13,892 nucleotides of DNA, from contig DAIBSV010000037.1 of the NCBI GenBank assembly GCA_027415455.1, forward strand, positions 1 to 13,892, written 5' to 3'. The stretch's first letter is position 1, and each line of letters starts with the position of its first letter. Under the pieces are notes generated by a model. It was not told where the DNA came from. It ran no database searches and was given only the letters and a program-made list of their open reading frames with translations. Source of the DNA: Nitrospirota bacterium (GTDB taxonomy: Bacteria; Nitrospirota_A; Leptospirillia; Leptospirillales; Leptospirillaceae). Positions 1-13,892 of the stretch are shown piece by piece. A program made the translations under genes and the position numbers.

Positions 1-1359
1 CAGGAAAAGGGCGATCTTTTCCATTCTGTTGGGGAGAAACTCCACCGTTTCCTCGGGGTCTTTCATGTACATCGCCATAACGACCCGGATGTAATAGTAG
101 GCTCCAACTGCGCTCAGAAGGACGCCGACGACCGCGAGCCACGTAAATCCGGCATGAACGGCGGCCATGAAGATATAGAACTTCGCCAGGAATCCTCCGA
201 AGGGTGGAATTCCGGCCAGGGAGAACATGAAAATAAGCATGAGGAAGGCCGCCATCGGATTCTTCTTGTTCAGGCCGACAAAGTCCTGGATCTCTTCGCC
301 CTCCACTCCCTTGCGCCGAAGGATGAGAACGATCCCGAAGGCCCCCAGCGTCATGAAAAGGTAGACAAAGAGATAGAACATCAGGGCAAAGAGGCTTTCC
401 CGGCTCGGATTGAGCAGACCGATCACGGCATATCCGGCATGGCCGATCGAAGAATAGGCAAGCATCCGTTTGATGTTTTTCTGGACGAGGGCCACGATGT
501 TTCCGATCAGCATCGAAAGGATGGCGATCGTGATGATGAGCCAGGTCCAGTGGTCCTTGTTGGCGGAGAAAGCCACCCAAAAAACCCTGAGGAAGACGCC
601 GAAGGCCGCGATCTTTCCGACCGAAGCCATGAACCCGGTCACCACGGTGGGCGCCCCTTCGTAAACGTCGGGAGTCCACATATGGAACGGAGCCGCCGAA
701 ACCTTGAAGGCGAAACCGACCATGGTGAGGATCATTCCTCCGATCACCATCGGCTTGAGCGCTCCGGGATTCTGGACGAAGGCGGCGAGCCCGCTGATCG
801 TCTCGGTCCCCGAGGCCCCGTAGAGAAGGGAAATTCCATAAAGGAAGATGGCGGAGGCGAAGGATCCCAGAAGAAAGTACTTGAAGGAGGCTTCGACCGA
901 CCGGTGAATCGTTCTCTTGAGTCCCACCAGGACATAAAGGCACAGGGACATCAGCTCGATCCCCAGGAACAGGGTGATCAGGTCGCCCGCAGAGACCATG
1001 ATCATCATTCCGACGGCGGCAAAGAGAAGAAAGCCGTAGTACTCCCCGACATGAATCTCCTCTTTTTCAAGGTAGGGAAGAGAAAAGAGGATGGTGATGA
1101 TCGTTCCGACATAGATCGCGATTTTGAAGAAGTTGGAGAAGGGATCGACGATGTAGAGTCCCTGGTAAAGGGGGAGACCTTTTCCATTGAGTCCGATCGT
1201 GGCGATCATCGCGAAAAACAGGGAGGCGATCGCGAAGAGCCCGAGCCAGGAGCGCTTTTCCCTCGGGACGAAGGGCTCCATCAACAGAAGAAGGCTTCCG
1301 AGAACAGTCAGGTATATCTCTGGCATGGTTCCCATAATGTTTACCGGAGAAAAATTCAT
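1..1359 (-). CDS. nuoN: NADH-quinone oxidoreductase subunit N (NuoN), 3' end cut by window edge
   Basis: This is one of the three antiporter-like, proton-pumping subunits of the complex I membrane arm. I translated it by hand from the ATG at 1359-1357; 453 codons are open to the window edge, and the family is about 480-490 residues, so only the last few dozen are missing. The protein is almost entirely hydrophobic helices. Visible landmarks are the TM5 glutamate in GIELMSL (E135), the TM7 lysine in FAFKVSAAPFHMW (K219), the TM8 lysine in SVGKIAAF (K249) and the motif APTVVTGFMAS between them. These match the proton-channel residues of the family. The start is supported by AAGGAG at 1368-1373, 8 nt upstream. 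It is the last gene of the minus-strand series, 66 bp after nuoM. No defects are seen. Confidence 0.95.
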   Translation of the reverse strand, partial: MNFSPVNIMGTMPEIYLTVLGSLLLLMEPFVPREKRSWLGLFAIASLFFAMIATIGLNGKGLPLYQGLYIVDPFSNFFKIAIYVGTIITILFSLPYLEKEEIHVGEYYGFLLFAAVGMMIMVSAGDLITLFLGIELMSLCLYVLVGLKRTIHRSVEASFKYFLLGSFASAIFLYGISLLYGASGTETISGLAAFVQNPGALKPMVIGGMILTMVGFAFKVSAAPFHMWTPDVYEGAPTVVTGFMASVGKIAAFGVFLRVFWVAFSANKDHWTWLIITIAILSMLIGNIVALVQKNIKRMLAYSSIGHAGYAVIGLLNPSRESLFALMFYLFVYLFMTLGAFGIVLILRRKGVEGEEIQDFVGLNKKNPMAAFLMLIFMFSLAGIPPFGGFLAKFYIFMAAVHAGFTWLAVVGVLLSAVGAYYYIRVVMAMYMKDPEETVEFLPNRMEKIALFL

Positions 1360-1425
1360 CAACAAAACTCCTTCATCAACTTGGTCTCCAAAATTCGATC
1401 CGGCATGGCATCAACCTGTCGGCGA

Positions 1426-2925
1426 CTAGTGCAACAGAGCCACCGGGGAGGGCTGAACCTGGCTGACCAGATGGGCCACGCTCTGGTGGAAGACAGACAG
1501 AACCGGGTTGGGAATCAGACCGATCACGATCACAAGAACAACAAGGGGAAGGAGAGCCCCCCACTCATAAGGCTTCAGGTCGGGCATGGCGTAACTCTTC
1601 GGTGTGTAGACGCCCCAGACAACCCTTGAGAGCATATAAAGGAGATACATGGCGGACAGGATCACGCCGGTTGTCGCAAGAGAGGAGACGACGGCATGAT
1701 TTCTGAAGGATCCGATCAGGACGAGAAATTCCCCTACGAAGGAGTTCGTTCCCGGAAGGGCCAGAGAGGAGAGGGCGAAGATGACCAGCAATGTGGAATA
1801 GACCGGCATCTGCTTTGCGATGCCTCCGTATTCGGAGAGAAGGCGGGAATGGGAGCGGTCATACAGGACTCCGATGCAAAGGAAGAGGGCTCCCGTGGTA
1901 ATCCCATGGTTCAGCATCTGCATGAGAGCCCCTTCGATCCCCTGCGTATTGAAGACAAAGATGCCAAGCGTCACGACACCCATATGGCTGACAGAGGAGT
2001 AGGCGATCAGCTTTTTCATGTCTTCCTGGGCCAGGGCCATGAACGCTCCCCAGACAATGGCGATCACCGATAGCGCGAGCATGAAGGGCGTAAAGAAATG
2101 GGAGGCATCGGGAAACATGGGGAGAGAGAAGCGCAGAAACCCGTACGCTCCCATCTTGAGCATGATCGAGGCGAGGATGACCGATCCGGCGGTCGGGGCT
2201 TCGACGTGGGCATCCGGCAACCAGGTATGGAAGGGAAACATCGGGATCTTGACGGCAAAGGCGGCAAACATCGCGGCGAAGGCCAGGATCTGGAAGGTCA
2301 TGCCATAGTGCTGCCCTGAAAGGCGGGTGATGTCGAAGGTATGTCCGCCCACGAAATAGAGGGCGATGATCGTGACCAGCAGCAGCAGGGACCCGGCCAA
2401 AGTATAGAGGAAGAACTTGATCGCCGCATAAATCCTGTTGGGTCCGCCCCATACTCCAATGATCAGATACATCGGGATCAGCATCGCTTCCCAGAAGACA
2501 TAGAAGAGGACGAAGTCGGTCGCGCAGAAAACTCCGATCATCGCTCCTTCCAGAACGAGAAGGTTGATCATGAAAAGAGGGATTTGCTTCGATATTCCGA
2601 CCCAGGAGGTGAGAACCGTCATCGGCATCAGGAGGGTCGTCATCAGGATGAGGACAAGGCTGATGCCATCGATCCCAAGGGCATAATGAATATTGGCGAA
2701 GGGAATCCAGACATGGTTTTCGGTAAACTGCATCTGATAGAGATGCGGATCATGGCCGACCAGTAGCGATAGAGAGACGACAAATTCGACGACGGTGATA
2801 CCCAGGGCAGCCCATTTCACGATGCCGTCGGAATCGGGACGCCGATAGAAAGGAAGGATGAGCAGGGAGGCCACCACCGGAAAAAATATCAGGAAGGTCA
2901 GGATCGGAACCGATAAAAAGGTCAT
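1426..2925 (-). CDS. nuoM: NADH-quinone oxidoreductase subunit M (NuoM)
   Basis: This 499-residue antiporter-like membrane subunit is one proton channel of the complex I arm; its length is normal (E. coli about 509). The sequence is polytopic, with about 14 hydrophobic segments. Key residues are the TM5 glutamate in FYVFWEAMLIP (E146), the TM7 lysine in FAVKIPMFPFHTWLPDAH (K226) and the TM8 lysine in SIMLKMGAYGFLRF (K257). The EAPTAGSVILA stretch between the two lysines is diagnostic for NuoM rather than NuoL or NuoN. The ATG follows a GAGGG ribosome-binding site at 2935-2939. It lies between nuoL (106 bp upstream) and nuoN (66 bp downstream) in the standard order. Nothing is unusual in the coding sequence. 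Confidence 0.97.
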   Translation of the reverse strand: MTFLSVPILTFLIFFPVVASLLILPFYRRPDSDGIVKWAALGITVVEFVVSLSLLVGHDPHLYQMQFTENHVWIPFANIHYALGIDGISLVLILMTTLLMPMTVLTSWVGISKQIPLFMINLLVLEGAMIGVFCATDFVLFYVFWEAMLIPMYLIIGVWGGPNRIYAAIKFFLYTLAGSLLLLVTIIALYFVGGHTFDITRLSGQHYGMTFQILAFAAMFAAFAVKIPMFPFHTWLPDAHVEAPTAGSVILASIMLKMGAYGFLRFSLPMFPDASHFFTPFMLALSVIAIVWGAFMALAQEDMKKLIAYSSVSHMGVVTLGIFVFNTQGIEGALMQMLNHGITTGALFLCIGVLYDRSHSRLLSEYGGIAKQMPVYSTLLVIFALSSLALPGTNSFVGEFLVLIGSFRNHAVVSSLATTGVILSAMYLLYMLSRVVWGVYTPKSYAMPDLKPYEWGALLPLVVLVIVIGLIPNPVLSVFHQSVAHLVSQVQPSPVALLH

Positions 2926-2971
2926 TCTTTTTTGCCCTCTTGGTAAAAATGAATTCTTCCGGATGGCGGAC

Positions 2972-2986
2972 TCGGATGCGATCCGA
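2972..2986 (-). other. Small perfect hairpin in the nuoL-nuoM spacer
   Basis: TCGGAT (2972-2977), a GCG loop and ATCCGA (2981-2986) form a perfect 6-bp stem with a 3-nt loop, about 30 nt upstream of the nuoM ribosome-binding site. It could affect mRNA stability or nuoM translation. It lacks a T tract on the minus strand and so is not a terminator. The pairing is seen in the sequence; the role is inferred. Confidence 0.35.
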
Positions 2987-2996
2987 CATCATCGAT

Positions 2997-3031
2997 AAAA
3001 AAGTCTGCAGCCGCTCCTTCGATCAGGAGCG
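2997..3031 (-). other. Hairpin after the nuoL stop codon, with a distant T tract
   Basis: On the minus strand the nuoL stop (TGA, 3034-3032) is followed directly by CGCTCC, an 8-nt loop and GGAGCG (arms 3026-3031 and 3012-3017). A run of six T follows, at 3002-2997. The 9-nt gap between stem and T tract makes an efficient intrinsic terminator unlikely, and nuoM and nuoN lie downstream. An attenuator or an mRNA end-protection or processing element that sets NuoL relative to NuoM/NuoN is possible. Confidence 0.35.
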
Positions 3032-4963
3032 TCACAACCTGTTGAAGACGAGATAAAAGGCCACCAGCCCGAAGACTCCGATGGCCATGACCATGGCGTA
3101 ATTCTGGAGCTGGCCTGTCTGATACCGTCGAAGACCAAGGCCCGAATTTCTGAAGAAGGCCGCGACCCCATTCACGATTCCATCGATGACGCCCTTATCC
3201 AGCTCCTGCCAGAAAAGGCGGCCGATAAGAAAGGACGTCCGGACGAAGACAAGGTCGTAGAGTTCGTCGAAATACCATTTGAAAAGCGATATCTTGTAGA
3301 AAAATGGGAATCCTTTGGCAAGAGTTGCCGGAATGGTGGAGGCCCGCCCATAAAAAGCCCACGCCACGAAGATACCAAAGACCCCGACAGCGATGGAAAG
3401 CCCTTTCAATGCGTCCTCCGAAAGGGATCCGGCTGCGGGATTTCCTTTGGGAAGAGGGAGTTCCTGGGCCAGATACTCGAGGACCCCGTAATGCTCCCCC
3501 GCCCATCCGGCAACGATCGCCGCAATGGAGAGAAGGACAAGAGGAATCGTCATCGTCAGGGGACTTTCATGAGGATGGACGGCATGGCCGCTTCCCTCTG
3601 AATGAAACCGCTCCTTCCCCCAGAAGACCAGGAAGAGAAGACGAAAGCTGTAAAAGGCTGTCAGGACGGCCGTCAGGACGCCGATGAGCCAGAGCATCTG
3701 GCCGAAGGGCCCCTGCTGGTAGGCTGTCACCAGGATAAGATCCTTGCTGTAATAACCCGCAAAGGGAGGAATCCCGGACAGGGCGAGGGATCCGATCAGC
3801 ATCGTGACGAAGGTGAGCCCCACATACTTCCTGAGTCCGCCCATCCGGAAGACATCCTGCTCGCCCGAAAGGGAGTGGATCACCGATCCCGCACCCAGGA
3901 AGAGGAGTGCCTTGAAGGCTCCGTGGGTCAGAAGGTGAAAGATGCCGGCGCCATATCCCCCCAGACCGCAGACCATGACCATGTACCCGAGCTGGCTCAT
4001 CGTGGAATAGGCGATGATCTTCTTGATATCCGGCTGGGTCAGGGCGATCGTGGCCGCGACGATGGCGGTCAGCGCTCCGGTCCATGCCACGACATGGAGG
4101 GCCATGGGGGCGGCATTGTAGAGAGGATTCATCCGGGCAATCATGAAGACGCCCGCCGTGACCATCGTGGCCGCATGGATCAGGGCCGAAATGGGGGTCG
4201 GACCCTCCATGGCATCCGGGAGCCATGGATGAAGAGGGATCTGCGCAGACTTACCCACCGCCCCGAGAAAGAGGAGGAGGGCGATGAGATCCAGGACGGG
4301 AATGTTGACGGACCCATTGAAGGCCGAGGCGATGTTGACCGTCTGATGGAGGTGGGCGGAGACGGCCGGGAAGATATCGGCGAACCGGACCGATCCAAAG
4401 ACGGTGTAGGTCAGGAAGATTCCAAGAAGGAAGCCGAAATCCCCAACCCGGTTCATGATGAAAGCTTTGTTAGCCGCGAGCCATGACGGACGGCGCTCGT
4501 ACCAGTGGACGATCAGGAGGTAGGAGCAAAGACCGACGGCCTCCCAGAAAATGAACATCTCGACGAGATTGTCCGAAAGGACCAGCATGATCATCGAAAA
4601 TGTAAACAGGGAGATATAGGAGAAGAAGCGATCATACCCCGAGTCCCCGTGCATGTATCCCACCGTGTAAAGGTGGACGAGCATGGCGACGGTTGTAACC
4701 ATGAAGAGCATGATGGCGGCCAGATGGTCGTACTGGAGGGAGATTCCGATATCGAGATGTCCCGACCGGATCCAGTCATAAACGAAGGTAATCTGCGGAG
4801 GGTCGGTGAAACTTTTGAAGAACTCCATTGTGGCGATCGCCCATGATCCGATGACAAGGGGAAGGGCGATGTAATGGCCTTTCCCTTTGAAATACGGCCA
4901 GAAGATTCCGACGATCAGAAATCCGATTAGCGGAAGAAGAGGTATAAGCAGAATCGGCATCAT
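3032..4963 (-). CDS. nuoL: NADH-quinone oxidoreductase subunit L (NuoL)
   Basis: This 643-residue protein is the distal antiporter-like subunit of complex I, with the long lateral helix at its C-terminus (E. coli 613 residues). The N-terminal part carries the conserved FIFWEAVGLCSYLLI with E141 (TM5 glutamate) and NRVGDFGF with D175. The central part has GAVGKSAQIPLHPWLPDAM with K238 (TM7 lysine), then MEGPTPISALIHAATMVTAG with H263. The 'EGPTPISALIHAATMVTAG' signature is specific to NuoL. The start is one of two adjacent ATGs (4963 and 4960), with GGGAG at 4974-4980 upstream. nuoK ends 22 bp upstream, so the two are surely co-transcribed. The last residues (about 620-640) form a final hydrophobic helix. 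Confidence 0.97.
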   Translation of the reverse strand: MMPILLIPLLPLIGFLIVGIFWPYFKGKGHYIALPLVIGSWAIATMEFFKSFTDPPQITFVYDWIRSGHLDIGISLQYDHLAAIMLFMVTTVAMLVHLYTVGYMHGDSGYDRFFSYISLFTFSMIMLVLSDNLVEMFIFWEAVGLCSYLLIVHWYERRPSWLAANKAFIMNRVGDFGFLLGIFLTYTVFGSVRFADIFPAVSAHLHQTVNIASAFNGSVNIPVLDLIALLLFLGAVGKSAQIPLHPWLPDAMEGPTPISALIHAATMVTAGVFMIARMNPLYNAAPMALHVVAWTGALTAIVAATIALTQPDIKKIIAYSTMSQLGYMVMVCGLGGYGAGIFHLLTHGAFKALLFLGAGSVIHSLSGEQDVFRMGGLRKYVGLTFVTMLIGSLALSGIPPFAGYYSKDLILVTAYQQGPFGQMLWLIGVLTAVLTAFYSFRLLFLVFWGKERFHSEGSGHAVHPHESPLTMTIPLVLLSIAAIVAGWAGEHYGVLEYLAQELPLPKGNPAAGSLSEDALKGLSIAVGVFGIFVAWAFYGRASTIPATLAKGFPFFYKISLFKWYFDELYDLVFVRTSFLIGRLFWQELDKGVIDGIVNGVAAFFRNSGLGLRRYQTGQLQNYAMVMAIGVFGLVAFYLVFNRL

Positions 4964-4985
4964 GTAATAAAGCTCCCTCGGCAGA

Positions 4986-5288
4986 TCAGAGTTTCAGCAG
5001 GTTATAGTCGTCCATGTTCACGGATTCCTTCAGACGGAATAGGGAGATGATGATTCCCAGTCCGATGGCCACTTCCGCCGCGGCCACGGTGATCACGAAG
5101 AAGACAAAGATTTGTCCGTCGATCAGATGCAGATAGTCACTGAATGCGACGAAATTGATGTTGACGGCATTCAGCATGATCTCGATGCAAAGGAGAACCA
5201 CGACGATGTTTCTTCGGATGAGAACGCCCACCAACCCGGTCACAAACATCAGGGCGCTGAGGGTGACATACCACGACAAAGGAACCAT
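4986..5288 (-). CDS. nuoK: NADH-quinone oxidoreductase subunit K (NuoK)
   Basis: This 100-residue protein, the same length as E. coli NuoK, is a three-helix membrane subunit (homologous to mitochondrial ND4L) that forms part of the central proton path next to NuoJ and NuoN. The two membrane glutamates essential in the family are visible: E36 in LLCIEIMLNAVNINFVAF and E72 in VAAAEVAIGLGI. The ATG is preceded by AGGGAGA at 5293-5299, at good spacing. It starts 33 bp after nuoJ and ends 22 bp before nuoL, in the standard J-K-L order. Confidence 0.97.
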   Translation of the reverse strand: MVPLSWYVTLSALMFVTGLVGVLIRRNIVVVLLCIEIMLNAVNINFVAFSDYLHLIDGQIFVFFVITVAAAEVAIGLGIIISLFRLKESVNMDDYNLLKL

Positions 5289-5321
5289 TGAATCTCCCTG
5301 CTAAACGTTTTCGTCCTTGCG

Positions 5322-5840
5322 TTATCCCTGGCTGACGCCCCCGCGTCCGCGAGCCATGACGATCGCTCCGACAAGAGCGATCAGCAACACGACAGAGGCC
5401 ACTTCGAAGGGAAAGAGATACTGGGTATAGAGAACCATCCCGATCGTTTCCGTATTCCCGAGGGTCGGCACACTGGGATGCGGGATGGCGGGAAGCTTGG
5501 GATAGAAATGGCTTTTGAGGACGAGATAGCCCATTTCTCCGGCAGCGAGCAAGGTCAGAATGATCGCCCAGGGGGTCTGACGCTGGAGGATGGGACCCCG
5601 ACCGTGGACGTTCAGGAGCATCACGACAAAAAGGTAGAGGACCAGGATGGCCCCCGCGTAGACGAGGAGCTGAACGCCGGCGAGGAAGGGGGCATCCAGA
5701 AGGATGAAGAGCCCTGCCACATGGACAAACATTCCAAGAAGGGCCATCGCGGAGTAGATGGCGATTCTCGAAACGACCACAAGAATGGCGCACACAAGGG
5801 CCATGCCGCCAAAATAGATAAACGGTAGCTGCTGAATCAA
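5322..5840 (-). CDS. nuoJ: NADH-quinone oxidoreductase subunit J (NuoJ), TTG start
   Basis: This 172-residue subunit (ND6 homologue, E. coli 184) has five hydrophobic helices and lies between NuoH and the antiporter subunits; its TM3 takes part in coupling quinone chemistry to pumping. The TM3-type motif YAGAILVLYLFVVMLLN is present. The start is a TTG at 5840-5838. It is forced by sequence: the nuoI stop (TGA, 5846-5844) is in the same frame two codons upstream, and a strong GGGAGG (5848-5853) sits 7 nt before the TTG. Only 3 bp separate nuoI and nuoJ, which suggests translational coupling. The C-terminus is short and basic/glycine-rich (RGRGGVSQG). Confidence 0.95.
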   Translation of the reverse strand: MIQQLPFIYFGGMALVCAILVVVSRIAIYSAMALLGMFVHVAGLFILLDAPFLAGVQLLVYAGAILVLYLFVVMLLNVHGRGPILQRQTPWAIILTLLAAGEMGYLVLKSHFYPKLPAIPHPSVPTLGNTETIGMVLYTQYLFPFEVASVVLLIALVGAIVMARGRGGVSQG

Positions 5841-5843
5841 CGT

Positions 5844-6392
5844 TCAACCTCCCAATGTAATCGGGGGAAAATGATAGCGTCCTTCGTCCTTGCCCGAATC
5901 TTCCGCATCCCACATGTTCCGAACCTTGAGATAGGCATCCGAGTCATTTCCCGATCTGTCCCCTAGCGCCAGCATCTGTTCCTTGGAATAGATGAGCCCG
6001 TCTCTGGTAAAGGAAGAATGGGCAAATTCCTTCGTCATGGACAGGGCGTTGACAGGACAGGCCACCACGCAATATCCGCAAAAGACGCACCGGGTGAAAT
6101 CCAGAGTGTATTCCTTGGCGTACCGTCTGTCCGGCACCTCAGGGTGGATGTCGCTGACGACCCTGATCGCCTTGGCGGGACAGATGGCCTCGCAAAGATC
6201 GCATCCGACACATCTCTCGACCCCGTTGTCGTATCGGCGATGCACGATGAACCCACGGTACCCGTCTGCAAGGACCAGCTTCTCCTTGGGGTACTGGACC
6301 GTAATCTTTCGAAGAAACATGTGCCGGAAGGTCAGCTTGAGACCTTGTCCAATCTCACTAAAAAGAATCGTGTTCAGAAATTTTTTCAACAT
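5844..6392 (-). CDS. nuoI: NADH-quinone oxidoreductase subunit I (NuoI), 2x[4Fe-4S]
   Basis: This 182-residue ferredoxin-like subunit carries clusters N6a and N6b and passes electrons from NuoG toward NuoB and quinone. Two complete CxxCxxCxxxCP motifs are present: C61/C64/C67/C71 (CVGCDLCEAICP) and C102/C105/C108/C112 (CVFCGYCVVACP). The N-terminus has an amphipathic, basic stretch (residues 1-35) of the kind that anchors NuoI to the membrane arm. The ATG follows CAGGAG at 6399-6404 with 6-nt spacing. It lies 60 bp after nuoH and 3 bp before nuoJ. Length and motifs are normal for the family (E. coli 180). Confidence 0.97.
   Translation of the reverse strand: MLKKFLNTILFSEIGQGLKLTFRHMFLRKITVQYPKEKLVLADGYRGFIVHRRYDNGVERCVGCDLCEAICPAKAIRVVSDIHPEVPDRRYAKEYTLDFTRCVFCGYCVVACPVNALSMTKEFAHSSFTRDGLIYSKEQMLALGDRSGNDSDAYLKVRNMWDAEDSGKDEGRYHFPPITLGG
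5848..5853 (-). promoter_or_regulatory. nuoJ ribosome-binding site inside the nuoI 3' end
   Basis: On the minus strand GGGAGG encodes part of the final Gly-Gly of NuoI and also serves as Shine-Dalgarno sequence for nuoJ, 7 nt before a TTG start. It decides the nuoJ start, because the frame is closed just upstream by the nuoI TGA. Confidence 0.75.
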
Positions 6393-6452
6393 ATCCGACT
6401 CCTGCGTTCATACTTCACGTTCAGACAATCCTCCGAGCCATTCGAAACCCGC

Positions 6453-7466
6453 CTATCGCTCTAGAAAATAGGCGGCGATTCCCGTCACGATGATGTTCGC
6501 AAAGGAAACAGGCAACATGATTTTCCAGCCGAATCGCATGAGCTGATCATAGCGCAGTCTCGGTAATGTTGCACGAATCCAGAAAAAGAAGAACAGGAAG
6601 AAATAGACCTTCAGAAGGAACCAGATGACGGGAGGAATGAATCCGAGGGACGGGAGGGGGGGATTCCATCCTCCGAGGAAGAGAATCGTCGCGACGGAGG
6701 AGACAATGATCATATTGGCGTATTCGGCAAGGTAGTACAGAGAAAAGCGCATGCCGGAGTATTCCGTGAAAAATCCCGCCACGAGTTCCGACTCGGCCTC
6801 CGGAAGGTCGAAAGGGGTCCGGTTTGTTTCGGCGATCCCTGAAATGAGGTAGATGACGAAGGCCACGATCTGGGGGAATATGTACCAGTGCCAGAACCCG
6901 CCCGACTGGGCATCCTCGATCTTGACGAGCGACATCGACCCCGAAAGGATCAGAACCCCGATCACCGACATTCCGGCGGTCAGTTCATAACTGATGACCT
7001 GAGCCGCCGACCTGAGGGCGCCGAGGATCGAGTACTTGCTGTTCGAGGCCCATCCCCCGAGCAGAATGCCATAGGCCCCAATGGAAGAAAGGGCCAGAAT
7101 GACAAGAATCCCCACATTGACATCCGCAATGTACGGATGGAGGGTCACCCCCTGGAATCCGAAGGAATCGTGGCCAAAGGGAATGACGGAAAAGGCGAGA
7201 ATGGCCGGAACGAGCGAGATGACCGGAGCAATCCGGAAAATGGCCCGGTTTGCTTCGCTCGGAATGATGTCCTCCTTCGACAGGAGCTTGATTCCATCGG
7301 CGAGAGGCTGAAGAAGCCCCCATGGGCCGACCTCCATCGGTCCGAGACGGTCCTGCATGAATCCCAGGACCTTACGTTCAAGGTAAGTCAGATAGGCGAT
7401 CATGGTCAGAACTACAAAAAGGACTCCCAGCATGACGACCAGGGCCCCGATCAGGTCGTTTATCAA
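6453..7466 (-). CDS. nuoH: NADH-quinone oxidoreductase subunit H (NuoH)
   Basis: This membrane subunit (ND1 homologue, about eight helices) forms much of the quinone-binding chamber. Diagnostic stretches are ERKVLGFMQDRLGP near the N-terminus, LADGIKLLSKEDIIP, ETNRTPFDLPEAESELVAGF and the following EYSGMRFSLYYLAEYANM. The charged loop of the E-channel is intact. The start is uncertain. The frame is open from a TTG at 7538 (361 residues), but the extra 24 residues are hydrophilic and poorly supported. I prefer the TTG at 7466 (337 residues, MINDLIGALV), which has AAGG in GAGAAAGGG about 7 nt upstream and gives a length closer to E. coli (325). The stop is TAG at 6455-6453. It lies between nuoG and nuoI as expected. 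Confidence 0.93.
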   Translation of the reverse strand: MINDLIGALVVMLGVLFVVLTMIAYLTYLERKVLGFMQDRLGPMEVGPWGLLQPLADGIKLLSKEDIIPSEANRAIFRIAPVISLVPAILAFSVIPFGHDSFGFQGVTLHPYIADVNVGILVILALSSIGAYGILLGGWASNSKYSILGALRSAAQVISYELTAGMSVIGVLILSGSMSLVKIEDAQSGGFWHWYIFPQIVAFVIYLISGIAETNRTPFDLPEAESELVAGFFTEYSGMRFSLYYLAEYANMIIVSSVATILFLGGWNPPLPSLGFIPPVIWFLLKVYFFLFFFFWIRATLPRLRYDQLMRFGWKIMLPVSFANIIVTGIAAYFLER

Positions 7467-7568
7467 AACCCACCCTTTCTCGTTGACATCCGCATTATCG
7501 ACGATTCCTTCAGCACAAATTGCCCCTTTCCGGACCAAAAAAATCCGGGCCTGCCTTTATTGCCGGGC

Positions 7569-7596
7569 GGGAAATCGGATTCCTGCGGGATTTCCC
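7569..7596 (-). other. Inverted repeat directly after the nuoG stop codon
   Basis: GGGAAATC (7569-7576) and GATTTCCC (7589-7596) form a perfect 8-bp inverted repeat with a 12-nt loop, starting on the base after the minus-strand nuoG TAA. A T tract of seven lies further downstream (7543-7537), about 25 nt past the stem, too far for a classic terminator. Like the element after nuoL, it may protect or partition the mRNA between the soluble-module gene and the membrane-arm genes. The pairing is seen; the role is inferred. Confidence 0.4.
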
Positions 7597-10077
7597 TTAA
7601 AGAACCGGCTCCAGTGTTACCGTGATGGACTGACCGGATGGAACACCCGAACGTGAGTTCCAGGAGAACCCTTTCCCGAACAGGGCCTGGATTCGTTCGT
7701 CGGCGAAATGGATCGGAAAATGAACTTCCCTGTCCGAAAGACCCGCGACCGGGTCGACCGGGAGGGAGGCCTCTCCATGTGCGGTCCGGACTCTCACACA
7801 GGATCCTTTCTTGAGCTTTCTTTTCCGGGCCCATTGCCTGGGAACCCGGAGAAGCCCTTCACCCTCGATCGTCATCAGACTGGCATCCTGGATGGTGAAG
7901 GTCCCGGAATGATTGATCGACTTCGAAAGCTGCAACACGAAGGCGTCTTCCGGAACGGGAAGACGCGCGGCCGATTCGGACGAGGCGGAGGGGGCGGACT
8001 TCATCCATTCCCCGACCTTGGCGACAACACTCTCCCGATGGGCCTTGTGGGGAGGCTGGGTCTTTGTGATCGCCAAAAGGATCTCGCCGGTCCCGCCCTG
8101 GAAATGGCTGGCATTGCGCGTAGAGGGCGAGAGGTCCGGGAAAATCCGGAAGATTTCCCGGGTGATCGCTGAAAAGTCATCGAATGGGAGGGCGGCCCCC
8201 ATATGGCGGGAAAGCTGAAAAATGATTTCCGCCTCGGGAAGGGAGTCTCCCCAATACGCCATGGAAGGAGCTATGGGCTGAACGAACCCTTCCGCGCTCA
8301 CGACGTGTCCCCCGCGCTCGAACGCAGTGGCCGAAGGAAGGAGAAAATGGGCGAGGTCGGCAATGTCGCTTTGGCGGTGATCAATGACCACCAAAAGCTC
8401 GAGCTTTGAGAGGGTCTCCCGGAGAAGGGCGGTATCCGGTATATATTCGAAGGGATTCTCACCCATTGTGATCAGGGCCTTGATCTTGCCGCTTTCGATT
8501 CCGGCCAGAATCTCCCTGATTCCCCCCCCGGAGGCTTCCAGTTGTGTTCCCCAATGGGTCTCCCATACCTTCCGGTTTTCCGCATTGGAGACCTCGAGAA
8601 GGCCGGGAAGCCACTCGCTGGATCCCCCCATCATCAGAACACCCATGTCATTTCCCAGCTCGGTGAGCGGGAAAAGGCCGGATCCCTCGGAGGCAAACCA
8701 TCCTTTCTCGGAGAGCAGGCGAAGGAGCTCCTCCGAAGCCTCAAGGCCGGTGTCGGAGCCATGAAACCTCCGACCGGTCACAAAGACGACCTTCTTTGCC
8801 GCTCCGAGATCGGCAATCAGACGCTCGATCCCTTCGAGAGAGGCTCCCATTGCCACAAAAGCATCCTTGGAAGCGATATCGAGAGTCCCCCCCGAAGCGA
8901 GGGACTTTCTCAGAAGGCGTAAAAAGTCGGCCTCCGCCCCGGGAAGAGTCCTGATCACCTCTTTGGCGCGCGTCGAAATGCTGACGTCGTGACCATGAAC
9001 CAGGTAGAGATTCGCCTTGTTCTTCCTGACCGCCTTCTTGATGGCAAGGCCGGTGATGTTGGATTCGGCGGCGGGATCTCCCCCAAGGACGACGATCACG
9101 TTGGCCGCTTCAATATCCTTGTGGTCGACGAGCGGCCTGAGGGATCCTGTCGCCTTGGCCAATGGTAGGGCCAGATTCATCAGCCCCCTCCTCGCCCCGG
9201 AATCGATAAAGTTCGAGCGAAGGGTCTGGCGAATGAATCGCTGAAACAGGAATGCGTCTTCGAGCGGGACACGGGAAGAGAGAAGGCCGGCCACACGACC
9301 GCTCCCGCCTGCGACGATCCCCCTCAGGCGGTCGGCAATCTTGGGCATGATCTCCTGCCATTTTCCTGGCACGAGCCGCTGCGCTTTCTTGAAGTAGACC
9401 TTGTCCAGCCGTTCCTTGTTCTGAACATAGTTGAATCCGAAACGTCCGACGACGCAGATCGATCCTTCGTTTGGACCCAAGCCCTCCTTCGAGGAAATCC
9501 GGACGATGGCTTCGCTCTCCGTGTCGACGAGCATTCGACACCCTGAGCCACAGGCCGTGCAGGTGGTCTCTGTCTTCTCCATCTGCCAGGGGCGGAACTG
9601 GTACCGGACGAACCGATCGGTGATCGCCCCTGTCGGACACACCTCGAGGCAGTCGCCGCAGAATTCGCAATCCAGCTTCTTCCCGAGGGGAGGACCGATG
9701 ATCGTGTCGAAGCCCCTGTTGATGAAGCCGATCGCATGCACGTCCTGAATTTCGTCGCAAATGCGGACGCACTTGCCACAGAGGATGCAGCGGTTTGAAT
9801 TGAAGACGAGGACATCGCTTTTCAGATCTTCCGGTTCATCGTTTCGGTGAGACTCAAAGCGGGAATCGGAGGCCCCGTAAGAAAAGGACATGTTCTGGAG
9901 CGGACACTCGCCCCCGCAATCGCAGACGGGACAATCCAACGGGTGATGCAGGAGAAGGAGTTCGAGATTGGTCTTCCGGGCATCGTGAACCTTGGCGGAC
10001 TCCGTCAGAACCTTCATTCCGTCGGAAACGGCCGTGATGCATCCCATCACGGTCCGTTTCGAATCCTCAAGCTCCAT
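7597..10077 (-). CDS. nuoG: NADH-quinone oxidoreductase subunit G (NuoG), 5' end lost at the inversion junction
   Basis: NuoG is the large iron-sulfur subunit of the input arm. From E51 (inferred native numbering, codon 10074-10072) to the stop, 825 residues are open, implying a native length near 875. Visible are C62, the last ligand of the N-terminal [2Fe-2S]; the N5 set H94-x3-C98-x2-C101-x5-C107; two full four-Cys motifs (CILCGKCVRIC and CEFCGDCLEVCP); and the N7-type set C-x2-C-x3-C-x27-C (CTACGSGC). A long molybdopterin-oxidoreductase-like domain follows. E. coli NuoG has fewer cysteines in the middle motif, so this form resembles formate dehydrogenase and [FeFe]-hydrogenase ferredoxin domains. 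The first about 50 residues are absent here because nuoD antisense sequence is joined at 10072-10076. The ATG at 10077-10075 is created by the junction and has no ribosome-binding site. The frame runs on to 10692, but that part is antisense nuoD. Confidence 0.93.
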   Translation of the reverse strand: MELEDSKRTVMGCITAVSDGMKVLTESAKVHDARKTNLELLLLHHPLDCPVCDCGGECPLQNMSFSYGASDSRFESHRNDEPEDLKSDVLVFNSNRCILCGKCVRICDEIQDVHAIGFINRGFDTIIGPPLGKKLDCEFCGDCLEVCPTGAITDRFVRYQFRPWQMEKTETTCTACGSGCRMLVDTESEAIVRISSKEGLGPNEGSICVVGRFGFNYVQNKERLDKVYFKKAQRLVPGKWQEIMPKIADRLRGIVAGGSGRVAGLLSSRVPLEDAFLFQRFIRQTLRSNFIDSGARRGLMNLALPLAKATGSLRPLVDHKDIEAANVIVVLGGDPAAESNITGLAIKKAVRKNKANLYLVHGHDVSISTRAKEVIRTLPGAEADFLRLLRKSLASGGTLDIASKDAFVAMGASLEGIERLIADLGAAKKVVFVTGRRFHGSDTGLEASEELLRLLSEKGWFASEGSGLFPLTELGNDMGVLMMGGSSEWLPGLLEVSNAENRKVWETHWGTQLEASGGGIREILAGIESGKIKALITMGENPFEYIPDTALLRETLSKLELLVVIDHRQSDIADLAHFLLPSATAFERGGHVVSAEGFVQPIAPSMAYWGDSLPEAEIIFQLSRHMGAALPFDDFSAITREIFRIFPDLSPSTRNASHFQGGTGEILLAITKTQPPHKAHRESVVAKVGEWMKSAPSASSESAARLPVPEDAFVLQLSKSINHSGTFTIQDASLMTIEGEGLLRVPRQWARKRKLKKGSCVRVRTAHGEASLPVDPVAGLSDREVHFPIHFADERIQALFGKGFSWNSRSGVPSGQSITVTLEPVL
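10072..10076. other. Inversion (or chimera) breakpoint joining nuoG and nuoD head to head
   Basis: Left of this point the minus strand encodes NuoG from (V)ELEDSKRT onward. Right of it the plus strand encodes NuoD from LHRGTEK onward. Both are internal, conserved sequence and no spacer lies between them. NuoG needs GTN-GAG here (Val-Glu after the CRMC motif), and NuoD needs CTC-CAT (Leu-His after Gly-Tyr). The bases that fit both genes are CTCCA, which suggests joining at a 5-bp inverted microhomology. That overlap is inferred from protein conservation, since the native junction sequences are not in the window. Confidence 0.85.
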
Positions 10078-11118
10078 CGCGGCACGGAGAAAATCGCCGA
10101 ATACAGGACCTACAACCAGATCATTCCCCTCACGGACCGGCTGGACTACGTCTCGGCGATGGCAAACAACTATGCCTTCGTCAGGGCCGTCGAAAAACTC
10201 CTTCAGCTCAAGGTTCCCGAAAGGGCGGAATTCATCCGGACGATCGTGGCGGAAGTCCAGCGGATCGTCAACCACCTGTTCTGGCTCGGGACGCAGGCCC
10301 TGGACATCGGGGCCATGAGCGTCTTCTTTTATACCTTCCGGGAGCGGGAGGTCCTTCTCGACCTCTTCGAAAAAATGTGCGGGGCGAGGTTGACCACCAA
10401 TTACTACCGCGTCGGCGGGGTCGAGGGGGATCTGGAACAGGATGTCATCGATGCCCTGTACAAATTCGTCGACACCTTTGAGCCGCACATTCTCGAGTAC
10501 AACACCCTCCTCGAACACAACAGGATCTGGCTGGCCCGTACAAAGCACATCGCCGTCATCACCGGAGAGGATGCCATCAACTTCGGCCTCTCGGGACCAA
10601 CCCTTCGCGGGTCGGGAGTGGACTATGACCTGCGGAAATATGAGCCCTATGGCGCCTACGACCTTGTCGATTGGACGGTCCCCCTGGGGCAAAACGGGGA
10701 TATCTACGACCGGTATTGGATACGGATCGAAGAGATGCGCCAGAGTGCAAGCATCATCCGGCAGTGTCTGGACAAGCTGCCATCAGGTCCCTTCATGACC
10801 GATGACCACAAGGTCTCCTTCCCGCCAAAGGGACGGGTCATGCACAACATGGAGACCCTGATCCATCACTTCCTCCTGGTCGTGGAAGGATTCAAGACGC
10901 CACCGGGGGACACCTACTGCGGCACGGAGACCCCCAAGGGGGAGCTCGGTTTCTATATCGTCAGTGACGGATCCGGCAAGCCCTACCGGATGAAGATTCG
11001 TGCCCCGTCATTTGTGAACATGGGGGCGTTCGACTTCATGGCAAGAGGATACATGATTGCGGATATCGTGACGATTTTCGGGACCTACGATATCGTCATG
11101 GGAGAGTGCGACCGATAG
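10072..11118 (+). CDS. nuoD: NADH-quinone oxidoreductase subunit D (NuoD), 5' end lost at the inversion junction
   Basis: NuoD (49-kDa subunit homologue) forms the quinone site together with NuoB. From LHRGTEK to the TAG at 11116, 348 residues are present out of about 400-410. The retained parts are typical: EYRTYNQIIPLTDRLDY, NNYAFVRAVEKLL (its tyrosine matches the quinone-headgroup tyrosine, Tyr87, of Thermus Nqo4), GLSGPTLRGSGVDYDLRK, ETPKGELGFYIVSDG and the C-terminal GECDR. About 55-65 residues are missing from the N-terminus, including the loop that normally carries HPSTHG and the second quinone-ligating histidine, so this copy could not work as it stands. Whether the native gene is a separate nuoD or a nuoCD fusion cannot be told. 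The frame is open upstream to 9847, but that part is antisense nuoG. The real start is expected beyond the right edge of the window if this is an inversion. Confidence 0.93.
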   Translation, partial: LHRGTEKIAEYRTYNQIIPLTDRLDYVSAMANNYAFVRAVEKLLQLKVPERAEFIRTIVAEVQRIVNHLFWLGTQALDIGAMSVFFYTFREREVLLDLFEKMCGARLTTNYYRVGGVEGDLEQDVIDALYKFVDTFEPHILEYNTLLEHNRIWLARTKHIAVITGEDAINFGLSGPTLRGSGVDYDLRKYEPYGAYDLVDWTVPLGQNGDIYDRYWIRIEEMRQSASIIRQCLDKLPSGPFMTDDHKVSFPPKGRVMHNMETLIHHFLLVVEGFKTPPGDTYCGTETPKGELGFYIVSDGSGKPYRMKIRAPSFVNMGAFDFMARGYMIADIVTIFGTYDIVMGECDR

Positions 11119-11150
11119 ACGGTTCGCTGAACGCGAATAACGGATCATTG

Positions 11151-11163
11151 CCGGCACAGCCGG
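11151..11163 (+). other. Small hairpin in the nuoD-nuoE spacer
   Basis: CCGGC (11151-11155), an ACA loop and GCCGG (11159-11163) make a 5-bp GC stem with a 3-nt loop, 33 nt after the nuoD stop. It has no T tract. It is one of at least two GC hairpins in this 129-bp spacer; the function is unknown. Confidence 0.3.
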
Positions 11164-11181
11164 TTGCATGATAAGTCCCCT

Positions 11182-11200
11182 GTCCGGGACAACCCGGGAC
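11182..11200 (+). other. GC-rich bulged hairpin upstream of nuoE
   Basis: GTCCGGG (11182-11188), an ACAA tetraloop and CCC-G-GGAC (11193-11200) can form a 7-bp stem with one bulged G (11196). GTCCC at 11175-11179 could compete by pairing with GGGAC at 11186-11190. It lies about 35 nt before the nuoE ribosome-binding site and has no T tract. It may affect mRNA stability or tune nuoE translation; this is inference from pairing only. Confidence 0.35.
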
Positions 11201-11233
11201 CGGGGTCACAATCTTCCAAACTAGGGTTCGTCC

Positions 11234-11243
11234 GGGGAGAAGG
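11234..11243 (+). promoter_or_regulatory. nuoE ribosome-binding site
   Basis: GGGGAGAAGG ends 4 nt before the ATG at 11248, with its GGGGAG core 8 nt away. It picks this ATG over the upstream in-frame TTG at 11164, which has no such site and would add 28 residues of low-complexity leader. Confidence 0.7.
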
Positions 11244-11247
11244 CAAG

Positions 11248-11775
11248 ATGGCTAATACGGAACACGGCGCATCCATTGTGATCAACGAAGAAGAAATTGA
11301 CCAGATATGCGAAGAGTTTGGAAACCGCGAAGGTGCGGTCGTCCAGATCCTTCAGACGATTCAGGAAAAGTACGGATATGTTCCCGCCGAAGTCCTCGAG
11401 CGGGTAGGGGAGGATCTCGGTATCCCCCACAGCAAGATGTTCGGGGTTCTGACCTTCTATTCCCAGTTTTACCAGGAGCCACGGGGCAAATTCATCCTCA
11501 AGGTCTGCGTGGGAACCGCCTGTCATGTTCGGGGGGCGGGCCTGCTGGTCGACAAGATCAAGGAAAACCTCCATATCGAAGCCGGTGAGAATACGGAAGA
11601 CATGATGTTCACTCTTGAGCCGGTCGCCTGTCTCGGCTCCTGCGCCCTGGCCCCGATGGCCATGGTGAATGGCAACACCTACGGGAAGCTCTCGGCTGAC
11701 AAGATGCTGGAGCTGATCAACCAGTTCCAGGAAGAAGGCTCCGGAAGCGACGAGGAGCCCGTTTCGGCGTCATGA
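11248..11775 (+). CDS. nuoE: NADH-quinone oxidoreductase subunit E (NuoE), [2Fe-2S]
   Basis: This 175-residue thioredoxin-fold subunit carries cluster N1a and partners NuoF in NADH oxidation. The four ligands are C87 and C92 (CVGTAC, C-x4-C) and C128 and C132 (CLGSC, C-x3-C), at normal spacing. The N-terminal helical part includes YGYVPAEVLERVGEDLGIP and the typical GVLTFYSQF. The C-terminus ends in a short acidic tail (residues 162-171). The length suits the family (E. coli 166). It lies 129 bp after nuoD and 136 bp before nuoF, wider gaps than in the membrane-arm genes. The gene is intact and lies wholly inside the presumed inverted block. Confidence 0.96.
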   Translation: MANTEHGASIVINEEEIDQICEEFGNREGAVVQILQTIQEKYGYVPAEVLERVGEDLGIPHSKMFGVLTFYSQFYQEPRGKFILKVCVGTACHVRGAGLLVDKIKENLHIEAGENTEDMMFTLEPVACLGSCALAPMAMVNGNTYGKLSADKMLELINQFQEEGSGSDEEPVSAS

Positions 11776-11849
11776 CGGGGGGGGAGATCTCTCCTTGTCA
11801 TCCGCTGTTTTTGTTTTGAGATGCGCAGATGGTTTGACCCATATACGCT

Positions 11850-11889
11850 GTCAGGGGGATAAGGGACCAAAATTCCTGACGTGTCCCCC
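11850..11889 (+). promoter_or_regulatory. Two mutually exclusive hairpins in the nuoF leader
   Basis: GTCAGG (11850-11855) can pair with CCTGAC (11875-11880). Alternatively 11854-11861 (GGGGGATA) can pair with 11882-11889 (TGTCCCCC) in an 8-bp stem with one G-U pair. The two stems share bases 11854-11855, so only one can form fully. The second ends 8 nt before the nuoF ribosome-binding site (GAGGAG, 11898-11903). This could be a translational switch or chance in a G/C-run region; no known riboswitch class is recognised. Confidence 0.3.
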
Positions 11890-11911
11890 CGAGGCATGAG
11901 GAGAATGAGCA

Positions 11912-13765
11912 ATGTTGACTGAAACAGTTGAGGAAATGGCGGCGGGGCTATTTCGTGAAGTGTCCGTTCCGACGATTCATATCGGAATGGCGACTTGTGG
12001 CCTGGCGGCCGGGGCCCGCTCCATTCTGGAACTCGTTGAAAAGGAACTTCAGAAGCGGGGACTCGAAGCCCGGATCGTGCCGACCGGATGCATTGGGATG
12101 TGCCACAACGAACCCCTTGTCGACATCACCATGCCCGGAAGATACAGAGTCTCTTATCGGAACGTAAAGGCCCTGATCATTCCCCAGATCTTTGACGCCC
12201 ATTTCGTCAAGGGGGATTTTGCGAAGAAGTATGCCGTCTGTCAGATTCCCATCGCAGGCCATACCCCCTACGAAGGTCTTCCGCTCATGCACGATACGAA
12301 TTTTTTCAAGGGCCAGGTGAAGATCGTCTCCAGTCGCTGCGGGCTGATCGACCCCTCCAGCATTGAGGATTATATCGCCACGAACGGATACAAGGCTCTT
12401 CGCAAGATGCTGACATCGATGACGCCGGAGATGGTCATCGAGGAGATGACGAAGTCAGGAATTCGGGGCCGGGGAGGGGGAGGATTTCCCACCGGACTCA
12501 AATGGAAGCTGACACGTCAGTCTCCCGGCGATGAGAAGTATGTGGTCTGCAATGCCGACGAAGGGGATCCGGGCGCCTTCATGGATCGTTCGATCCTGGA
12601 GGGCGATCCTCACAGCGTGCTCGAGGGAATGTTGGCGGCCGCCTATTCGATCGGGAACTCCAAAAAAGGGTACATCTACTGTCGCGCGGAGTATCCTCTG
12701 GCCATCAAGCGCCTGCGCAAGGCCATCGACGATGCCAAGGAGCGCAACTTCCTGGGGGACAACATCCTGGGAACGGATTTCTCTTTCGATATCACGATCA
12801 AGGAAGGGGCGGGAGCCTATGTCTGCGGAGAGGAAACGGCTCTCCTGGCCTCCCTCATGGGAGAGCGGGGCATGCCGTGGCCCAAGCCACCCTTTCCAGC
12901 CCAGAAAGGCGTCTGGGGGAAACCCACTGTCATCAACAATGTCGAGACGCTCGGCAATGTGGGGCATATCCTGCTGGGTGGCGGAGACTGGTATGCATCC
13001 TACGGCTCCGAAAAGACGAAAGGCACAAAGACCTTCGCCCTCACTGGCTCCATCAAGAATTCGGGCCTGATCGAAGTACCGGCCGGAACCCCCCTCAGAT
13101 CGATCGTTTTCGATATCGGCGGAGGAATGCTGGAGAAGAAGATTCCCTTCAAGGCCGCCCAGCTCGGTGGACCTTCCGGCGGATGCATTCCCACCTCAGG
13201 GCTCGATACCCCCGTGGACTTTGAAAATGTCGTGGCGGCGGGGGCGATCATGGGGTCTGGCGGAATCGTCATCATGGATGAAGCCTCCTGTATCGTGGAC
13301 ACGGCAAAGTTCTTCCTGAAGTTCACCCAGGATGAATCCTGCGGGGAGTGCACTCCCTGCCGTGTCGGCTCAAAAATCATGCTCGACATTCTGACGCGGA
13401 TCACCGAGGGACAGGGGCAGGAAGGGGACCTCGACGAACTGATCAGGCTTTCCATGTATGTCAAGTCGAATTCCCTGTGCGGTCTTGGAGCTGCGGCGCC
13501 CAACCCTGTTCTTTCAACGATCCGGTACTTCAGGGAAGAGTTCGAGGCCCATATCCGGGACAAGCATTGCCCGGGGACGGTCTGCGCCAATCTCATCAAA
13601 TATGTGGTGATCGAGGAAGACTGTACGACCTGCGGATTATGCGAGCCGGTTTGTCCGACTGGTTCGGTAACATGGGACAAAGGAGAGGTGGCCCACATCA
13701 ACCTGGAAACTTGTATCCGATGCAAGGCCTGTGTGGATGCCTGCAAGTTTCGAGCGATCATTTAG
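11912..13765 (+). CDS. nuoF: NADH-quinone oxidoreductase subunit F (NuoF), long form with extra ferredoxin domains
   Basis: NuoF binds NADH, FMN and cluster N3 and is the electron entry point. This copy has 617 residues against about 445 in E. coli. Residues 1-125 form a thioredoxin-like ferredoxin domain with C29 and TGCIGMC (C60, C64). The core has GRGGGGFPTG (186-195, FMN/NADH), NADEGDPGAFMDRS (214-227), GAYVCGEETALL (301-312) and the N3 ligands C477, C480, C483 and C523. The C-terminus adds two [4Fe-4S] motifs, C571/C574/C577/C581 and C601/C604/C607/C611. This layout is known from HydB/HndC hydrogenase subunits and from some bacterial complex I. The operon context with nuoD, nuoE and nuoG favours complex I. 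The ATG is preceded by GAGGAG at 11898-11903 with 8-nt spacing. The gene is intact. Confidence 0.96.
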   Translation: MLTETVEEMAAGLFREVSVPTIHIGMATCGLAAGARSILELVEKELQKRGLEARIVPTGCIGMCHNEPLVDITMPGRYRVSYRNVKALIIPQIFDAHFVKGDFAKKYAVCQIPIAGHTPYEGLPLMHDTNFFKGQVKIVSSRCGLIDPSSIEDYIATNGYKALRKMLTSMTPEMVIEEMTKSGIRGRGGGGFPTGLKWKLTRQSPGDEKYVVCNADEGDPGAFMDRSILEGDPHSVLEGMLAAAYSIGNSKKGYIYCRAEYPLAIKRLRKAIDDAKERNFLGDNILGTDFSFDITIKEGAGAYVCGEETALLASLMGERGMPWPKPPFPAQKGVWGKPTVINNVETLGNVGHILLGGGDWYASYGSEKTKGTKTFALTGSIKNSGLIEVPAGTPLRSIVFDIGGGMLEKKIPFKAAQLGGPSGGCIPTSGLDTPVDFENVVAAGAIMGSGGIVIMDEASCIVDTAKFFLKFTQDESCGECTPCRVGSKIMLDILTRITEGQGQEGDLDELIRLSMYVKSNSLCGLGAAAPNPVLSTIRYFREEFEAHIRDKHCPGTVCANLIKYVVIEEDCTTCGLCEPVCPTGSVTWDKGEVAHINLETCIRCKACVDACKFRAII

Positions 13766-13782
13766 TGGGTGAGGTTTCTTCT

Positions 13783-13892
13783 ATGGTAAAGGTCACGATT
13801 AATGGAATAGAAGTCGAGGTCGAATCCGGCGCGACCATCCTGCATGCGGCAGAAAAGGCCGGATTCCCGATTCCGACCTTTTGCTACAATCC
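13783..13892 (+). CDS. nuoG: NADH-quinone oxidoreductase subunit G (NuoG), 5' end, cut by window edge
   Basis: Thirty-six codons from the ATG at 13783 encode the plant-type [2Fe-2S] ferredoxin start of NuoG: MVKVTINGIEVEVESG, then ATILHAAEKAG and PIPTFCYN, with C34 as the first ligand of cluster N1b. GAGG at 13771-13774 is the ribosome-binding site. It starts 17 bp after nuoF, so the two are co-transcribed. This is the N-terminus that the minus-strand nuoG fragment lacks. With the family spacing C34-x10-C45-x2-C48-x13-C62, only residues 37-50 are unseen between the two pieces, so together they plausibly make one NuoG of about 875 residues. Confidence 0.92.
   Translation, partial: MVKVTINGIEVEVESGATILHAAEKAGFPIPTFCYN

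Follow-up and report, generated by a model that had tools for sequence, protein, structure and literature searches.

An inverted join in the nuo operon of a Leptospirillum-related bacterium and its probable origin as a chimera

Genes on opposite strands and the anatomy of the join

The stretch of DNA that was analysed here (the window; 13,892 nucleotides) carries complex I genes in two sets that lie on opposite strands and meet at an inverted join inside nuoD and nuoG. At face value it would suggest a Leptospirillum-related bacterium without a functional complex I from its nuo locus, and the question is whether the join belongs to the living organism. On the minus strand, nuoH to nuoN (1..7538) run 3′ to 5′ along the plus strand in the same order as in the nearest genome compared (G001), with nuoN cut by the window start; nuoL was checked with Pfam, and the remaining names in this set are taken from the sequence-only reading of the window and from gene order. 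The same strand carries nuoG minus its first 49 codons (7597..10077), which was identified from its open reading frame, comparison with G001 and Pfam. The truncated NuoG is devoid of the N-terminal 2Fe-2S domain (PF13510, PF00111) that is present in the intact G001 protein. The join also converts the codon for Val50 of G001 NuoG to one for Met and thereby creates an ATG at 10077–10075 (minus strand), from which gene-calling software could annotate a neat-looking NuoG of 826 residues.

The plus strand begins at the join with nuoD, from the LHRGTEK motif to the stop codon (10072..11118; 348 residues). The N-terminus of this NuoD piece is missing, and all 271 positions of PF00346 are retained. 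The inverted block continues with nuoE (11248..11775, within an open reading frame at 11164–11775; the start was picked by eye and the name follows the sequence-only reading and gene order) and nuoF (11912..13765, from its open reading frame and Pfam). The C-terminal 4Fe-4S ferredoxin domain of NuoF occupies residues 543–593 of the 596-residue piece that was scanned. The last feature on this strand is formed by the first 36 codons of nuoG (13783..13892), which are cut by the window end and correspond to positions 16935–16826 of G001 contig C22, 34 bp from the left breakpoint.

The two arms of the window align to C22 without gaps. The left arm (window 1–10081) corresponds to C22:6712–16792 on the plus strand, with 10,070 of 10,081 bases identical (11 mismatches), and the right arm (window 10072–13892) corresponds to C22:20646–16826 on the minus strand, with 3,791 of 3,821 bases identical (30 mismatches). 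The two breakpoints are 3,854 bp apart in G001. These alignments bear out the sequence-only reading in its description of two gene sets on opposite strands related by a single inverted block, and their overlap confirms its placement of the junction at 10072..10076, an exact 5-bp inverted microhomology (CTCCA/TGGAG) that is common to both breakpoints. That reading had also placed the breaks at LHRGTEK in NuoD and at residue 50/51 in NuoG, which holds, and at a codon boundary in both genes, a position that an overlap of 5 bases leaves too ambiguous to assign. The arm alignments overlap by 10 bases in total (10072–10081), composed of the exact CTCCA, one mismatch and then CGCG (9 of 10 bases). 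The mismatched position, 10077, is T in the window and on the nuoD side of G001 but C on the nuoG side in both G001 and a second close genome, G006. Among 200,000 simulated random inverted joins on contig C22 (distances up to 10 kb), 0.74% had at least 5 exact shared bases, so the overlap exceeds the usual outcome of a single blunt random join.

The surroundings of the join contain few other elements. Inverted words of at least 7 bases were absent at the join when up to 600 bp around each breakpoint was searched (the longest elsewhere is 11 bases). No long inverted repeat was found at the breakpoints and no recombinase gene was noticed across the window, as had been claimed from the sequence alone. 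No promoters or terminators were found in 9800–10400, and the only repeat in 9600–10600 is one imperfect inverted pair (34 nt, 71% complementary) that is located within nuoD and is unrelated to the join.

A spurious frame of 1031 codons (7597–10692) fuses antisense nuoD with nuoG, and the window thus illustrates clearly that one inverted join is enough to yield spurious long open frames in assemblies. Long antisense frames also lie across nuoN (1–1629, plus strand).

The intact operon in related genomes

G001 contains 100% of the 31-letter words sampled from the window. Its contig C22 (112,800 bases) carries nuoD-E-F-G-H and onward on one strand (gene names from the sequence-only reading and gene order, with D, F, G and L also assigned by Pfam). 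In this genome the NuoG frame is open over 875 residues, and the 5-bp overlap spans parts of residues 50 and 51. The open NuoD frame starts either at an ATG at C22:20877, which gives 425 residues, or at a nearby TTG; with the ATG as the start, the break at LHRGTEK falls at residue 78. Apart from the 11 differences in the 10,081 bases of the left arm, the window differs from G001 by 2 bases in 10082–13617. In G006, too, neither breakpoint is interrupted; the sequence is split between two contigs, with a 9-bp overlap that falls inside the block. Outside the end tract of the window, the difference from either genome is no more than a few tenths of a percent. The nuoD–N operon of Leptospirillum-related Nitrospirae (G001, G006 and the named loci L010–L017 and L019–L024) comprises the same genes as the window, which is more than 99% identical to G001; however, in these loci D-E-F-G-H is unbroken on one strand (in G006 on two abutting contigs).

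The join itself was searched for in three sets of DNA sequences. Window 9600–10560 was matched by 11 of the 14 genomes of the genus, and none of the 14 carried the join: nine of the matching genomes have both arms on one contig and on opposite strands, which corresponds to the intact order, and the other two (G006 and G010) have the arms on separate contigs. The junction region (9972–10171) was matched by 17 of the 21 family genomes, and no match in the 21 ran through the junction; the left-arm match that extends furthest ends at query base 117, i.e. window position 10088. DNA matches were obtained for 50 of the 51 named loci, a set that may omit records very near the window, and in the 14 that show both arms flanking the breakpoints the order is intact. 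At the protein level, none of the 66 matches to the NuoG-side stretch that spans the join reaches into its antisense part, and their coverage of the stretch does not exceed 46%, compared with 39% for the true NuoG part alone. Proteins in the 43–46% range are few and, judged without residue-level inspection, mostly hydrogenases by name or domain. For NuoD, the 120 matches listed (of 266) likewise stay out of the antisense part, with coverage of no more than 50%, which equals the true NuoD part. The protein searches have limited power, since an annotated start could lie within the gene, and the window's own spanning protein was not returned by either search. With no spanning match among those listed for either strand, the join was not found elsewhere.

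The analysis confirms the join as an observation but not a biological disruption of complex I. The real disruption that the sequence-only reading had considered finds no support, as the breakpoints are intact in G001 and G006 and the join is absent from the other genomes examined and the listed proteins. The intact operon of a near-identical genome guards against a false call of gene loss.

Origin of the join

The window is very probably an in vitro or assembly chimera. An amplification or assembly chimera had been considered at least as likely as a real inversion from the sequence alone, and it is now clearly favoured because near-identical G001 is intact and the join was not found in any other genome or listed protein examined. 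Since the nearest genome retains the whole operon, the join is most likely an artefact of DNA copying or assembly and not biology; we infer that it arose outside the cell, and likewise the step responsible, be it amplification, library preparation or assembly. In the probable course of events, a strand copied from one arm of the intact nuo operon detached and, through a few complementary bases (TGGAG/CTCCA), annealed again to the opposite strand ∼3.9 kb away, where amplification or library preparation would have extended it; alternatively, the assembler may have joined the arms. The population in nature would in that case keep an intact nuoD-E-F-G-H-I-J-K-L-M-N operon and a working complex I. 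The window ends 34 bp before the point from which a turned-back strand would run through the left arm again in reverse, a probable place for an assembler to halt, assuming that the window end is the contig end.

The join resembles the chimeras that are described for multiple displacement amplification. Among the 475 chimeras of the single-cell study by Lasken and Stockwell (2007, PMC1855051), 406 were inverted, of which 337 joined segments less than 10 kb apart; overlaps of at least 2 bases (range 2–21 nt) were present at 76.8% of the junctions. The chimeras of this study share with the window one inverted junction, segments less than 10 kb apart (3,854 bp in G001), a short complementary overlap within the 2–21 nt range and otherwise colinear neighbours. 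The junction is also absent from independently sequenced near-identical DNA (G001 and G006), and no match in the 21 family genomes runs through it. In a second report (PMC5372508), more than 95% of the overlaps are 3–13 nt, and the distances lie mainly within 5 kb with a preferred range of 80–280 nt. The 3,854 bp of the window is therefore at the long end of this distribution, far above the preferred range, and the window also differs from the published cases in that amplification of its sample is undocumented. According to the literature, an amplified pool contains any given chimeric junction only rarely, so its dominance in a contig would need low depth or an early event. Microhomology joins also arise in living cells, which counts against the chimera, as would a window end that is a cut within the contig and not its end. 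Other copying steps, or processes inside a cell, could produce the same structure.

We consider it unlikely that the join stems from a living sub-population with an inverted extra copy of, or an inversion in, the complex I operon, in which the NADH-entry module would be switched or duplicated through the 5-bp inverted repeat. We regard it as improbable that microhomology-mediated repair has truly inverted the 3.85-kb block in some or all cells. Such an inversion would interrupt both nuoD and nuoG, with the predictable loss of this complex I. The gene order and strands are explained by a single inversion and the 5-bp microhomology is compatible with such repair, but the closely similar G001 and G006 are intact and the join occurs in no examined genome or listed protein. 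Moreover, a true inversion would show a second join near the window end, assuming that this is the contig end, and the window contains only one of the two junctions expected; its last base corresponds to C22:16826, and the left breakpoint, at which the second would lie, is 34 bp further on. A fixed inversion would also be costly, as the truncated NuoG has lost its 2Fe-2S domain.

Fold-back or tandem inversion duplications are a class of rearrangement that occurs in enteric bacteria. A real duplication of this kind, with an inverted extra copy joined at a short inverted repeat beside an intact operon and a functional complex I, would predict one inverted junction with short complementarity and no reciprocal junction. 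It would also predict that the contig stops where the reverse self-repeat would begin, which the window end fits. However, the junction is present in no genome examined, and the same structure is the usual product of amplification (PMC1855051), so that this origin appears very improbable.

An evolved reversible switch that turns complex I on and off is the least tenable explanation and extremely improbable. Invertons consist of an invertible DNA block between inverted repeats, with a site-specific recombinase. The window likewise has a block in inverse orientation flanked by inverted repeats, though of just 5 exact bases or 9 of 10; it differs in this 5-bp overlap, which is not of the recombinase type found at both ends of an inverton, in the second junction, which is not seen, and in the recombinase gene, which was not noticed in the window. 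An inverton would be present in both orientations in its population, and each of the genomes compared has the block in a single orientation. Site-specific inversion was rejected because an inverted word of at least 7 bases is absent at the join and because the TGGAG word on the nuoG side is altered, and hence not conserved, in all three of the more distant sequences compared (G004, which has TGGAA, L011 and L012).

A divergent tract at the window end

The window looks mosaic in a second way, besides the inverted join, when its right end is compared with related genomes. After 3,303 bases that are identical to G001 (10315–13617), a tract of 255 bases (13618..13872, plus strand) contains all but two of the inverted arm's 30 mismatches (28), with an unchanged run of 64 bases inside the tract region (13727–13790). 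The last 275 bp of the window (13618–13892) are ∼10% different from G001, G004 and G006, and the best identity of 13600–13892 to any of the 21 family genomes is 90%. Given this clustering of mismatches and an identity of at most 90%, the window end probably comes either from another strain or species through mis-assembly or from a natural import. The tract is a further sign of an artefact, although import by natural recombination would count against the chimera. Two short stretches elsewhere in the window have weaker second matches in G001. Window 3876–4006 matches C1:11613–11743 at 72%, and 12434–12508 matches C3:12779–12853 at 75%; the matched regions may belong to additional antiporter-like or NuoF-like genes.
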